In this document: positions 2,056-5,166 of the stretch, piece by piece
Layout of the letters: every line of letters starts with the position of its first letter
Position numbering within the stretch: position 1 is the first letter of the stretch
From: Candidatus Undinarchaeales archaeon
GTDB lineage: Archaea > SpSt-1190 > JASMDC01
Length of the DNA stretch: 5,166 nt
NCBI GenBank assembly: GCA_030753015.1
Contig: JASMDC010000077.1
Span: forward strand, 1 to 5,166
Direction of reading: 5' to 3'
Notes under the pieces: generated by a model
What the model was told of the DNA's origin: nothing
What the model saw: only the letters and a program-made list of their open reading frames with translations
Database searches by the model: none
Translations under genes and position numbers: made by a program

Positions 2056-2093
2056 ATGAAACCCTTTATAATCTAATCCGTGAAACCAGTTTC
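2056..2093 (-). promoter_or_regulatory. Promoter and operator of the oxidoreductase operon (copy 1 of the shared 38-bp element)
   Basis: On the minus strand this holds the palindrome GAAAC-N2-GTTTC (2082-2093), then CGGATTAG, then the TATA box TTATAAAG (2064-2071), then GGTTTCAT running to 2056. Palindrome centre to TATA centre is about 20 bp, close to two helical turns. With normal archaeal spacing, transcription would start near 2041. The same architecture and nearly the same sequence recur in the opposite orientation at 2767-2804. The palindrome is read as an operator and GTTTC at 2058-2062 as an extra half-site between TATA and start; occupancy there could block initiation, while binding at the upstream palindrome could activate or repress. 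Confidence 0.8.
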
Positions 2094-2126
2094 AAATCCA
2101 TGAAATCGTGCTTGTGCGAGAATACC

Positions 2127-2141
2127 GAAAGATGGATAAAC
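2127..2141 (+). promoter_or_regulatory. Probable promoter of the membrane-bound regulator gene
   Basis: A weak TATA-like GGATAAAC (2134-2141) is preceded by the purine-rich CGAAAGAT, which resembles an archaeal BRE. Its centre lies about 27 bp upstream of the ATG at 2165, predicting a start at or next to that ATG, hence a leaderless mRNA; no convincing Shine-Dalgarno is present at 2150-2164. It lacks the GAAAC palindrome of the flanking promoters, though a degenerate half-site (ATGAAATC, 2100-2107) lies nearby. The weak TATA suggests low expression. Confidence 0.5.
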
Positions 2142-2164
2142 CCATCGGGTCCTAGCGTGGAACG

Positions 2165-2746
2165 ATGGACATAGGACGGCTCCTTTTCCGCATCGGAATT
2201 ATCCTCCTCATCGTGTCGGCCATCAACATCGTCCTTATCAAGAACTTCACAGACATGGTGCAAGAGAGTCGGAAAGAAGCCTGTGCTCTGGCCTGTGCGG
2301 CAGGTAGCTGCCCCGACGATATGGTGGACGGGGTGAATATGGCGGAGACTCCCCTCACACCCATCGGCATCTCACGGCGCATCCTCTCTTGCAGTGACCA
2401 AGACCACGACCTCGGTACTCCCATCGAGACCTACGTCAGTATCATTACGGCCTGCATCTCCGCACTGGTGGGCATCATGATGATCGAAATCTCCCGCAGG
2501 CTCAGCTCTGAAGGCGTGGACGTGGCTAAGAAGATGGAACACATACTCGACACCCTTGAGGGCGAGGAACGTGAGGTGTACCGGCTCGTCACCGAGGCAG
2601 ACGGTTCGATCATGCAGAGTGACATCGTCAATAACACGAGTCTCACAAAGGTCAAGGTGACCCGTCTCCTCGACAAGCTCGAGGGCAAGGGGCTCGTTGA
2701 ACGGCGTAGGCGGGGCATGGGGAACCTCGTTGTGCTCAAGCACTAG
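2165..2746 (+). CDS. Membrane-anchored winged helix-turn-helix transcriptional regulator with a cysteine-containing external loop
   Basis: 193-aa predicted one-component regulator. TM1 spans about 6-25, an external loop about 26-88, TM2 about 89-108, and a cytoplasmic winged HTH about 130-193. Basic residues before TM1 (R5, R9) and after TM2 (R111, R112) support both ends being cytoplasmic. The C-terminal part fits a MarR-like winged helix: an EEREVYRLV helix, QSDIVNNTSLTKVKVTRLLD as the helix-turn-helix, then GLVERRRRGMGNLVV as helix end and wing. It resembles archaeal membrane-associated regulators of the COG2512 type (recognised from memory). The external loop holds C40, C44, C49 and C76, with C97 inside TM2; these could form disulfides or bind metal. 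The gene lies between two inverted copies of a palindromic promoter element, making it the obvious candidate to bind them. The ATG at 2165 is chosen because it opens just before TM1 and matches a leaderless start. Confidence 0.88.
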   Translation: MDIGRLLFRIGIILLIVSAINIVLIKNFTDMVQESRKEACALACAAGSCPDDMVDGVNMAETPLTPIGISRRILSCSDQDHDLGTPIETYVSIITACISALVGIMMIEISRRLSSEGVDVAKKMEHILDTLEGEEREVYRLVTEADGSIMQSDIVNNTSLTKVKVTRLLDKLEGKGLVERRRRGMGNLVVLKH

Positions 2747-2766
2747 ACCGCCTCAGTTGCCCCTAT

Positions 2767-2804
2767 GAAACCAGTTTCGCGGATTAGTTTATAAAGGGTT
2801 TCAT
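2767..2804 (+). promoter_or_regulatory. Promoter and operator of the ABC/DUF2318 operon (copy 2 of the shared 38-bp element)
   Basis: The palindrome GAAACCAGTTTC (2767-2778) is followed by CGGATTAG (2780-2787), the TATA box TTATAAAG (2789-2796) and GGTTTCAT (2797-2804). ATGAAACC at 2765-2772 and GGTTTCAT at 2797-2804 form a perfect 8-bp inverted repeat bracketing the TATA box. TATA centre to the permease ATG is about 27 bp and no Shine-Dalgarno is visible before 2819, so the mRNA is probably leaderless. Compared with the reverse complement of 2056-2093, 34 of 38 positions agree; two of the four differences are the central CA of the palindrome. Confidence 0.82.
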
Positions 2805-2818
2805 GTTCCTATCGGTAG

Positions 2819-3976
2819 ATGGATATATTCGGGCTTGCTATCAGGAACCTGGTCCGGCGCAGGAGCCGAACCCTCTTCCTCGTTCTGGGCATAGCTGTCA
2901 GCATCGCCACCGTGGTTGCCATGTTCGCGATCACGGCCTCGATGGAAGGGAAGGTTAACAGCGAGCTTGAGCGCTTTGGTGCCAATATTGTCGTCGTTCC
3001 GCGAAGCCAATCCATCAACCTCCAGTTCGGTGGTTTCGGGATGGGAGGTGTCTCCTTTGGATCCACCGATATCGATGCCGAATCGTTCGACCTCATCCAC
3101 ACGATCAAGAACAACGAGAACCTCGCCCACATCGCTCCGAAGGTCTTTGGTATAATCGAGGGGAAGACCGAGAATGAGCCAGTTATCATCGCGGGCGTGA
3201 ACTTCACAGAAGAACCGTCCGTGAAGGCGTGGTGGAACGTGAACGGCACGCTGCCTGAAGCGGAGCACGAGGCGCTCGTCGGGGCCGATGCAGCCGAGCT
3301 GTTCGGACTCGTTCCGGGGAGTACCATATCACTGAAGGGTCAAGAATTCACGGTCTCAGGCGTTCTCCAGTCCTCGGGTTCCACCGACGATAGCATAGTG
3401 TTCCTCCACCTGCCCATAGCCCAGGAGCTCCTGGACAAGCAGGGCGTGTACACCATGGTGGACGTCCGGGCGCTGTGCAACACATGCCCCATTGACGAGA
3501 TCACCAGACAGATCATGGAGGCAGTACCGGATGTGAAGGCGACACCTGTCAAACAGGTCGCTTCTGCCGAGATGGCGATCCTTAGCAGCGTACGTAACTT
3601 CTCGATGCTCATATCGTCAGTCATCATCCTCCTCAGCGTGCTGGGACTGGCGGGCCTCGTCCTCTCATCTGTGAACGAGCGCACCCGTGAGATTGGAGTA
3701 CTGATGTCGCTGGGATTCAAGGAGGGACAGATCGCCCGGCTCATCATCTACGAGACGGCTCTCATGGGCTTCGTCGGCGGTATCTTGGGGTTCGTCCTGG
3801 GTGTCGGTATCGCGGTACCTGTGGGCCCCTCCATCGTCGGGACCCCTATCATCCCCTCAGTCACATTCCTCCCCATCGCCATCGCCCTCTCCCTCTCGAT
3901 CACGCTGATCTCGTCGATATATCCCGCCCATCAGGCTGCGCACCTGCACCCATCGGACGCGCTGAGGGCATTGTGA
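2819..3976 (+). CDS. MacB/FtsX-type ABC transporter permease with an extracytoplasmic CxxC
   Basis: 385-aa integral membrane subunit of a type VII (MacB-like) ABC system. TM1 is about 18-40 after a basic N-terminus (LVRRRSRT), followed by a large extracytoplasmic MacB-PCD-like domain about 41-260, then TM2 about 263-285, TM3 about 314-336 and TM4 about 351-368. The FtsX signature region is clear: NERTREIGVLMSLGF (286-300) precedes TM3, and YPAHQAAHLHPSDALRAL closes the protein, as in LolC/MacB permeases. The external domain has a Gly-rich stretch (about 70-81) and the only two cysteines, C220 and C223, in LCNTCP. Such subunits usually act as dimers and transmit ATPase motion to the periplasmic side rather than forming a classical channel. 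Linkage to a DUF2318 protein suggests the permease type found in P19-like iron-uptake loci (inference). The ATPase gene follows after 11 bp. Confidence 0.93.
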   Translation: MDIFGLAIRNLVRRRSRTLFLVLGIAVSIATVVAMFAITASMEGKVNSELERFGANIVVVPRSQSINLQFGGFGMGGVSFGSTDIDAESFDLIHTIKNNENLAHIAPKVFGIIEGKTENEPVIIAGVNFTEEPSVKAWWNVNGTLPEAEHEALVGADAAELFGLVPGSTISLKGQEFTVSGVLQSSGSTDDSIVFLHLPIAQELLDKQGVYTMVDVRALCNTCPIDEITRQIMEAVPDVKATPVKQVASAEMAILSSVRNFSMLISSVIILLSVLGLAGLVLSSVNERTREIGVLMSLGFKEGQIARLIIYETALMGFVGGILGFVLGVGIAVPVGPSIVGTPIIPSVTFLPIAIALSLSITLISSIYPAHQAAHLHPSDALRAL

Positions 3977-3979
3977 GGT
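3975..3979 (+). promoter_or_regulatory. Shine-Dalgarno site of the ATPase gene, overlapping the permease stop
   Basis: GAGGT overlaps the permease TGA stop (3974-3976) and lies 8 nt before the ATG at 3988. It favours that ATG over the GTG at 3973, which would overlap the permease by 4 nt, and suggests translational coupling. Confidence 0.6.
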
Positions 3980-3987
3980 TATTTGAT

Positions 3988-4653
3988 ATGGTATTCATCG
4001 ATGTCAAGGGAGCGCGCAAGGAGTTCAACATTGGTGTTTCGATCATCGCCCTCAAGGACGTGACATTCTCCGTCGAACAGGGCGAGTTCGTCGGCATCAT
4101 GGGACCCAGCGGGAGCGGTAAGAGCACCCTGCTCAACATCGTGGGCGGTCTCGAGCAGCTGGACGGTGGTGCCGTGACCGTGGACGATATGGACATATAT
4201 GATACGACGTCCGCGACACTGGCGAACTACCGCAGGGAGTACGTGGGGTTCATCTTCCAGCAGTTCCACCTGATACCCACCCTCACTGCCGTCGAGAACG
4301 TATGCCTCCCCCTCATGCTCTCCGGCCTCCCCGGGGACGAACAGCTCGAGCGTGCGCGCGAGGTGCTCGATTGGGTGGGGCTCAAGGGATTGGAGGACCG
4401 CCTCCCCCATCAGCTCTCCGGTGGAGAGCAACCACGCGTGGCCATCGCACGCGCAACGGTCAATGAACCGCTCATCCTCCTAGCCGACGAGCCCACGGGG
4501 AACCTGGACTCGACAACGGGCGAGGAGATTATGAAGCTGCTCCGGCGGCTCAACGATAAAGGAACGACGATCCTCTTCGTGACCCATGACCAGCGTCTGG
4601 GGGCCGAGGCGGACCGCATTGTCAGGATCAAGGACGGTGTTGCACATGAGTAA
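3988..4653 (+). CDS. LolD/MacB-type ABC transporter ATP-binding protein
   Basis: 221-aa cytoplasmic ATPase partner of the upstream permease; length is normal for LolD-type subunits. Motifs with this start: Walker A GPSGSGKST (39-47), Q-loop glutamine Q91 in GFIFQQFHLIPTLT, ABC signature LSGGEQPRVAIARA (143-156), Walker B ILLADE (163-168) with catalytic E168, D-loop GNLD (171-174) and switch H200 in VTHD. All catalytic residues are present. The position after LSGGEQ, usually Q in this subfamily (LSGGEQQR), is proline here (codon CCA, 4432-4434). The ATG at 3988 is preferred because MVFIDVKG aligns with the usual family start and has GAGGT 8 nt upstream; a GTG at 3973 would add five residues. 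Its last 8 bases overlap the next gene. Specificity cannot be read from the ATPase; context points to an envelope metal or redox role. Confidence 0.94.
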   Translation: MVFIDVKGARKEFNIGVSIIALKDVTFSVEQGEFVGIMGPSGSGKSTLLNIVGGLEQLDGGAVTVDDMDIYDTTSATLANYRREYVGFIFQQFHLIPTLTAVENVCLPLMLSGLPGDEQLERAREVLDWVGLKGLEDRLPHQLSGGEQPRVAIARATVNEPLILLADEPTGNLDSTTGEEIMKLLRRLNDKGTTILFVTHDQRLGAEADRIVRIKDGVAHE

Positions 4654-5166
4654 AAGACGGAACAAGCGACGTAAGAATGCAGAACAGGACGACCTCCTCC
4701 AGAAGAAGCGAGATCGGCTCCACGGGAGCCCTCGACCGAGCTCCATGAACAAGTGGATCGCACCAGCGGCCCTATTGCTGGGTGTACTGGCCGTAGCGGC
4801 GTACGCCTTCTCCGGGGGGAACGATTCCCCTGCAATGGTCATCCTTCCCGCGGACGCGCCCCTCCCCGAGGGTGCCACGTCGACCGCGCTGGAAGCGGCC
4901 GAGGCGCCCGATACAGCGGGACCGACTGCCGAGGTAGAGAAAGCATATGTCTACGAACCACAGAAAGTCTCCTATTCCGGAAAGACCGTGTCCTTCAGCG
5001 AAATCGAACTGAGCGATGCTGGCGAGTACATCGAGATCCCGCTCGAGGACATCCTCGAAAAGAAGCTCGTGCGGTTCAACTACCAAGGGAATAAGCTCGT
5101 CCGCATGCTCGCATACGTGGCTCCTTCCGGCCGTATCGTGACCTCAGTGCGGGTGTGCGAGCCGTG
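4646..5166 (+). CDS. Membrane-anchored DUF2318-type predicted metal/Fe-S binding protein (partial, 3' end missing)
   Basis: 173 complete codons are visible before the window ends. The protein has a very basic cytoplasmic N-terminus (MSKRRNKRRK), one TM helix or signal anchor (about 37-56), a low-complexity Ala/Pro/Glu linker (about 60-100), then a folded external domain. The pattern from about 100 on (VSFSEIEL, EYIEIPLEDI, LVRFNYQGNKLVRMLAYVAPSGRIVTSVRVCEP) matches my recollection of DUF2318 proteins, where a CEPC motif is followed by a second CxxC (CxxCGTxW). The two leftover bases TG fit the next codon being Cys. These proteins are annotated as Fe-S or metal containing and accompany FtsX-type permeases, MacB-type ATPases and thioredoxins in P19/FTR1 iron-uptake loci. 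The start overlaps the ATPase gene by 8 nt, with AGGA (4631-4634) and GGTG (4636-4639) upstream. Function is inferred from the family; the metal site lies outside the window. Confidence 0.82.
   Translation, partial: MSKRRNKRRKNAEQDDLLQKKRDRLHGSPRPSSMNKWIAPAALLLGVLAVAAYAFSGGNDSPAMVILPADAPLPEGATSTALEAAEAPDTAGPTAEVEKAYVYEPQKVSYSGKTVSFSEIELSDAGEYIEIPLEDILEKKLVRFNYQGNKLVRMLAYVAPSGRIVTSVRVCEP

Follow-up and report, generated by a model that had tools for sequence, protein, structure and literature searches.

The window analysed here, an entire contig of 5,166 bp (C92) within a 3.85-Mb archaeal bin, carries two inverted copies of a 38-bp promoter/operator-like element on either side of a gene putatively encoding a membrane-bound regulator. 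This arrangement raises the questions whether one regulator acts at both elements, whether it is the protein encoded between them, as proposed in the original prediction, and to which signal it responds. Considering the distribution of regulator and element among other DPANN archaea, we propose with a probability of about 0.8 that the protein represents an uncharacterised family of transmembrane regulators which senses, on the outer side of the membrane, a Cu(I)-like metal or thiol stress and acts via this element, the ligand and the sign of the regulation being what we infer from sequence.

According to direct reading of the sequence the two elements agree at 34 of 38 positions, compared to a best inverted 38-nt match of 30/38 in 20 dinucleotide-type shuffles. 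In a repeat search the pair ranked first among the inverted repeats of the window (43 nt at 88%). The coordinates, the inverted orientation and the identity given in the original prediction were thereby borne out, and the flanking genes face outwards with the regulator between them as had been claimed (Table 1). Each element consists of GAAAC-NN-GTTTC, a stretch of 19 nt that includes a TATA box, and a further GTTTC. In its own direction copy 2 reads GAAACCAGTTTC-GCGGATTAGTTTATAAAGG-GTTTC-AT and copy 1 GAAACTGGTTTC-ACGGATTAGATTATAAAGG-GTTTC-AT. The palindrome had been placed about 20 bp upstream of the TATA box, which is correct from centre to centre but not for the intervening gap of about 11 bp. 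The minus-strand copy ends 56 bp before the gene of the DsbA-like protein; its palindrome, which precedes the regulator start by about 71 bp, could act on the regulator gene as well.

Table 1. Predicted genes and promoter/operator elements of the 5,166-bp window
Feature	Position	Strand	Remarks
DsbA-family protein, 625 aa	124..2001	-	predicted target of copy 1; one TM segment, two thioredoxin-fold domains, three CxxC sites
Promoter/operator element copy 1, 38 bp	2056..2093	-	faces the DsbA-like gene; palindrome, TATA box and third half-site; sequence seen directly; minus-strand reading 2093-2056: GAAACTGGTTTCACGGATTAGATTATAAAGGGTTTCAT
Copy 1 third half-site	2058..2062	-	GTTTC; between gene and TATA box
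Copy 1 TATA box	2064..2072	-	ATTATAAAG on minus; position kept in the 73 sites of relatives
Copy 1 palindrome	2082..2093	.	GAAACCAGTTTC (GAAACTGGTTTC on minus)
Membrane-bound regulator, 193 aa	2165..2746	+	two TM helices (TM1, TM2) joined by an outside loop with C40 and C49; winged helix (DUF7343, MarR-like) at the C-terminus
Promoter/operator element copy 2, 38 bp	2767..2804	+	GAAACCAGTTTCGCGGATTAGTTTATAAAGGGTTTCAT; faces the ABC/FtrD-like operon
Copy 2 palindrome	2767..2778	.	GAAACCAGTTTC
Copy 2 TATA box	2788..2796	+	TTTATAAAG; position kept in the sites of relatives
Copy 2 third half-site	2798..2802	+	GTTTC; ends 16 bp upstream of the permease ATG (2819), a spacing of leaderless type
MacB/FtsX-type ABC permease	2819..3976	+	first predicted target gene of copy 2
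ABC ATPase	3973..4653	+	second gene of the copy 2 operon
FtrD-like (DUF2318) protein, start only	4646..5166	+	cut by the contig end; profile comparison, probability 86%

The C-terminal 58 residues of the regulator (134-191) scored above the cut-off of DUF7343 (PF24034; 45.8 bits vs 27.6), and the winged helix also exceeded the Pfam MarR cut-off (26.9 bits vs 24.6). Hydropathy indicates two TM segments. The AlphaFold model (mean pLDDT 84.7) contains a helix at residues 3-48, a loosely modelled loop, a second helix at 86-130 and a confident winged helix at 134-191. The best Foldseek matches were mostly regulators of the MarR and ArsR types, aligned via the winged-helix part, and full-length fold matches were weak (TMq about 0.3). 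Among 52 regulators, a count in which a few rows represent the same gene fetched twice, both cysteines of the outside loop are invariant (52/52), accompanied by a histidine in 46 and by a methionine after the second cysteine in 43. The usual loop signature in the DPANN relatives is C-x-H-G-x2-C-P-M, whose cysteines correspond to C40 and C49 in the window protein; the loop of the latter (CALACAAGSCPDDM) lacks the histidine. The winged helix is nearly unchanged among the DPANN relatives, and the window regulator is rather diverged, with 28-38% identity to the others.

The distribution of regulator and element was analysed in 279 genomes of the Nanoarchaeota phylum, which includes the Woesearchaeota record G015, and in 146 genomes of the Micrarchaeota-containing phylum of G013. 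A strong regulator match (E <= 1e-28) was detected in 120 of the 279 genomes. The exact 36-bp pattern occurred 73 times in 69 of the 279, compared to a single occurrence of the reversed pattern used as a control. It was present in 67 of the 120 genomes with a strong regulator match vs two of the 159 without (Fisher p = 1.6e-28) and, in the second sample, in eight of 14 genomes with a regulator match vs two of 132 others (p = 3e-8), these p-values overstating the number of independent events since the genomes are related to each other. Conversely, among the 69 genomes with the pattern, 67 have a gene closely related to that of the window's regulator; the exceptions are a genome with a typical site and no regulator match (G126) and another with an atypical site (G264). 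Forty-nine of the 73 sites follow the regulator gene on its own strand at a distance of 0-150 bp, and the palindrome was found at 17 of 22 loci that had been identified by protein similarity alone, often directly behind the regulator gene. The exact pattern is missing from 53 of the 120 strong-match genomes, among them some in which the pattern has a single altered position (L100, L102) or its third half-site is degenerate (L104); at L091 and L103 no element was detected within the examined stretch.

The co-occurrence in both samples and the adjacency support the proposal that one regulator acts at both elements of the window and that it is the membrane-bound winged-helix protein encoded between them. 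Occurrence of the motif at many promoters of genomes lacking the regulator had been named as one of the observations that would speak against this, and the two samples contain just two such genomes each. We consider it strongly supported that the element is the operator of this regulator family, its binding by the protein being predicted from the genomic distribution.

The full pattern, GAAACNNGTTTC-N19-GTTTC, has three copies in the source genome, two of them in the window and one on another contig (C11:9879-9914). The regulon had been described as self-contained, which is not supported in view of this third exact site and of other genomes with sites on separate contigs; the motif scan of source genome and relatives envisaged in the original prediction added one copy in the former and the 73 sites in the Nanoarchaeota phylum. 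The bare palindrome GAAACNNGTTTC occurs at six places in the 3.85-Mb genome and is weak evidence when taken alone. On C24 and C73 it is accompanied neither by a matching third half-site nor by a promoter-like context, and on C32 it matches only with a poor third half-site. Since these places lack the remaining architecture, it is the 36-bp architecture that appears to discriminate. Searches at the genus and order level gave matches in the source genome only.

The C11 copy precedes a 51-aa ORF (L133, 5072-5227) which adjoins an ACT-domain gene; the product of the ORF contains a CxxxCC motif (CNDGCC) and matched no Pfam family. Furthermore, the source bin of 3.85 Mb has 5% contamination, while other genomes of its class comprise 0.6-1.1 Mb, so the bin may be composite.

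No function had been assigned in the original prediction; the predicted targets in the relatives point to the handling of metals and thiols. The 59 first genes behind the element, which were chosen by a script that at some loci skips a short heavy-metal-associated (HMA) gene for a longer one behind it, encode HMA (25), DsbD_2 (16), FtrD-like (5), cupredoxin (5), DUF411 (3), DsbA (1) and P-type ATPase (1) proteins. In 34 genomes, selected for having the element, a site precedes 79 of the 90 HMA domains in the whole genome by at most 5 kb, compared to a chance expectation of about 0.3%. Operons behind the element also include genes of CPC-type ATPases above the NCBIfam cut-off for copper translocation (TIGR01511), an assignment to copper that depends on this model, as the general heavy-metal model TIGR01525 scores equally or better. 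A VKOR-family protein is likewise encoded in element-led operons. The genomic association of regulator and element with putative copper chaperone and exporter genes is strong in the DPANN relatives.

The families of the window's DsbA and FtrD-like genes were detected under the element elsewhere in DPANN archaea as well (FtrD-like at L027, L031, L033, L034 and L061, DsbA at L123), the FtrD-like assignment in the window being based on a truncated protein that reached no Pfam family, probably because of its truncation. The 625-aa DsbA-family protein carries its third CxxC between the two DsbA-like domains, and its best NCBIfam match above the cut-off was the Rcas_1661 thioredoxin-like (seleno)lipoprotein family. 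The window's genome has a gene for an HMA-bearing CopA-type protein of 919 aa (C11; L134, C11:83500-90500) with no element copy nearby, so copper is argued from the relatives and not from the window's own genome. For the organism of the window, an envelope metal/thiol-stress regulon is the safest statement.

The regulator presumably functions as a one-component transcription factor which is anchored in the membrane by two helices. Upon metal or oxidant stress at the cell surface the two invariant cysteines of the outside loop would probably bind Cu(I) or a comparable soft metal, or else form a disulfide, and the signal may travel via TM2 to the cytoplasmic winged helix. A dimer is predicted to bind GAAAC-YR-GTTTC just upstream of the BRE/TATA region. 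A second protomer or dimer probably occupies the third GTTTC, which follows the TATA box at 24 bp from the matching half, and the bound protein would thereby straddle the box. The targets would serve repair and detoxification outside the cell, in the window by a DsbA-like oxidoreductase and the ABC/FtrD-like set and in the DPANN relatives by copper chaperones and CopA-exporter operons.

Some details of the operator in the relatives are relevant to the sign of the regulation. The centre dinucleotide, which was left free in the search, is TA in 62 and YR in 72 of the 73 sites, and the likewise free position 13 is A in 89%. The TATA box occupies positions 22-29 in constant register, and positions 25-36 form a degenerate second palindrome which is 24 bp from the first and overlaps the TATA box. 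Sites often stop 14-17 bp short of the start codon, a distance as in leaderless archaeal promoters; the palindrome is thereby placed just upstream of the BRE and the third half-site between TATA box and start. At one locus (G016:C15:7969-8028; L073) two divergent elements (7969-8004 on the minus and 7993-8028 on the plus strand) share a single 12-bp palindrome, which is flanked in both directions by a third half-site.

We read the two palindromes as a pair of putative binding sites that straddle the TATA box. This arrangement favours repression, and we lean slightly towards a repressor that is relieved by the signal. Taken by itself, the upstream site would be compatible with activation, by analogy with CopR of Pyrococcus furiosus (PMC7830388), whose motif is likewise directly upstream of the BRE region. 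A dimer in this place might recruit TFB/TBP on signal binding, and the archaeal membrane-bound regulators ArnR/ArnR1 are activators (PMC6396743). However, the third half-site is located at a fixed distance in the core promoter between TATA box and start, where binding of a protein would obstruct TBP or the polymerase, and activation seems a somewhat less probable alternative to repression. With regard to the signal, the same regulator-operator pair may respond to the thiol redox state by a disulfide in the loop, the metal genes being part of an envelope thiol-stress regulon. A disulfide requires no more than the two invariant cysteines, His and Met are missing from some of the regulators, and the targets include DsbA, DsbD-like and VKOR-family proteins as well as the DsbA-like protein with three CxxC sites in the window. 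On the other hand, HMA domains and CopA-type ATPases prevail in the operons, and a Cys-His-Cys-Met set of ligands is typical for Cu(I). We regard a redox signal in place of a metal as less probable but as a serious rival. Against our main reading, the right-hand operon of the window resembles FetABCDEF-type sets, which are linked to iron uptake in Campylobacter (PMC10783030). On balance we find it marginally more probable than its alternatives taken together that transmembrane factors throughout the DPANN archaea read extracellular copper or another soft metal via a minimal Cys-His-Cys-Met hairpin and act directly at one nearly invariant chromosomal operator, each being an extracytoplasmic metal sensor made up of one protein.

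It is improbable that the element is the operator of another factor and the regulator gene a mere neighbour in a metal-resistance cluster. Most sites lie in the regulator's own cluster, so adjacency and co-occurrence are partly one fact; yet sites are also located on contigs without the regulator in the window's genome and in G015, G092, G191 and G219, and no second co-varying factor is known, a statement made without a systematic search. In addition, four proteins of the Micrarchaeota-containing phylum (G308, G330, G336, G377) with longer reading frames match over the winged-helix part only, and their genomes carry the element, which points to the winged helix as specificity determinant. These four may represent sensor swaps on one DNA-binding domain. 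The inverted copies, which flank one gene at 671 bp, might also be taken for the terminal inverted repeats of a small mobile segment or the inversion sites of an invertible one, but no transposase or recombinase is encoded in the contig, and across DPANN archaea promoters carry the element as a single copy in which the register of the TATA box is fixed. This distribution of single copies rules out mobility as the main explanation, and we assign it a negligible probability.

Membrane-bound one-component regulators are a known class, from which the window family differs in domain order, sensor and operator. Transmembrane transcription regulators have been reported in 367 of 404 archaeal species (PMC10269533). 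The window regulator, like these, combines a DNA-binding domain and at least one TM region in one polypeptide; the text of that survey does not contain metal, copper, cysteine, MarR or DPANN, whereas the window family is distinguished by a specific conserved loop and an operator. ArnR/ArnR1 of Sulfolobus acidocaldarius, which control pili and archaella via boxes of the form TCGAC-N5-GTCGA, are likewise one-component regulators bound to the archaeal membrane; they have two TM helices, and their operator is an inverted repeat located upstream of the TATA box (PMC6396743). However, ArnR has an N-terminal HTH, a HAMP and a sensor domain and C-terminal TM helices, while the window regulator has the reverse order, with N-terminal TM helices, a short hairpin loop and a C-terminal winged helix. 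CopR of P. furiosus shares the archaeal origin and a semi-palindrome directly upstream of the BRE; it is copper-responsive with copA as a target, forms an octamer, contains a TRASH domain and recognises TTNNCAWWWTGNNAA (PMC7830388). In contrast, the window regulator is membrane-anchored, gave no TRASH-domain match in Pfam and has the operator GAAACYRGTTTC. With MarR and DUF7343 proteins it shares the winged helix, but its N-terminal half is a TM hairpin in the place where the soluble MarR proteins have their dimerisation helices.

The accessory genes FetABCDEF of the iron uptake system FetMP in Campylobacter resemble the window in combining an ABC permease, an ATPase, a DUF2318/FtrD-like protein and a thioredoxin-type oxidoreductase (PMC10783030). 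The window set differs in being archaeal, in having one permease and no FetM/FetP on the contig, which ends at 5166, and in the divergent orientation of the DsbA-like gene. Furthermore, in place of the Fur site of the Campylobacter cluster (PMC10783030), its promoter carries the element. A search of openly licensed PMC papers found none with GAAACTAGTTTC or DUF7343; an earlier description is possible.

Two-component systems are common for extracytoplasmic metal sensing in bacteria. If our reading is correct, two helices and a loop of about 10 residues would constitute a very small design for this purpose. Transcription regulation in DPANN archaea is, to our knowledge, almost unstudied, since these organisms are hard to culture; here the sequences of several DPANN phyla suffice to name a regulator, its putative operator, the promoter geometry and the predicted regulon, and the pair is accessible to tests with purified protein and DNA. 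The location of the element before genes for copper handling and sulphur redox reactions in dozens of DPANN archaea suggests a widespread, undescribed form of surface metal-stress sensing. It also links copper chaperones and CopA operons to DsbA, DsbD-like, VKOR and FtrD-like proteins of unknown role and thus provides a functional lead for uncharacterised families.

Related-looking uncharacterised DPANN membrane proteins are encoded behind the element at L020 (4244-4906), L111 (799-1485), L113 (799-1485), L122 (752-1468), L125 (773-1477) and L127 (758-1453); scanned singly, those at L020 and L113 gave no family match. Directly behind the element, genes for small Cys-rich and HH/Met-rich proteins were also detected (L024, 4254-4490; L078, 2127-2342; L101, 2081-2323; L055, L073, L128, L129), and these proteins are possibly metal-binding.
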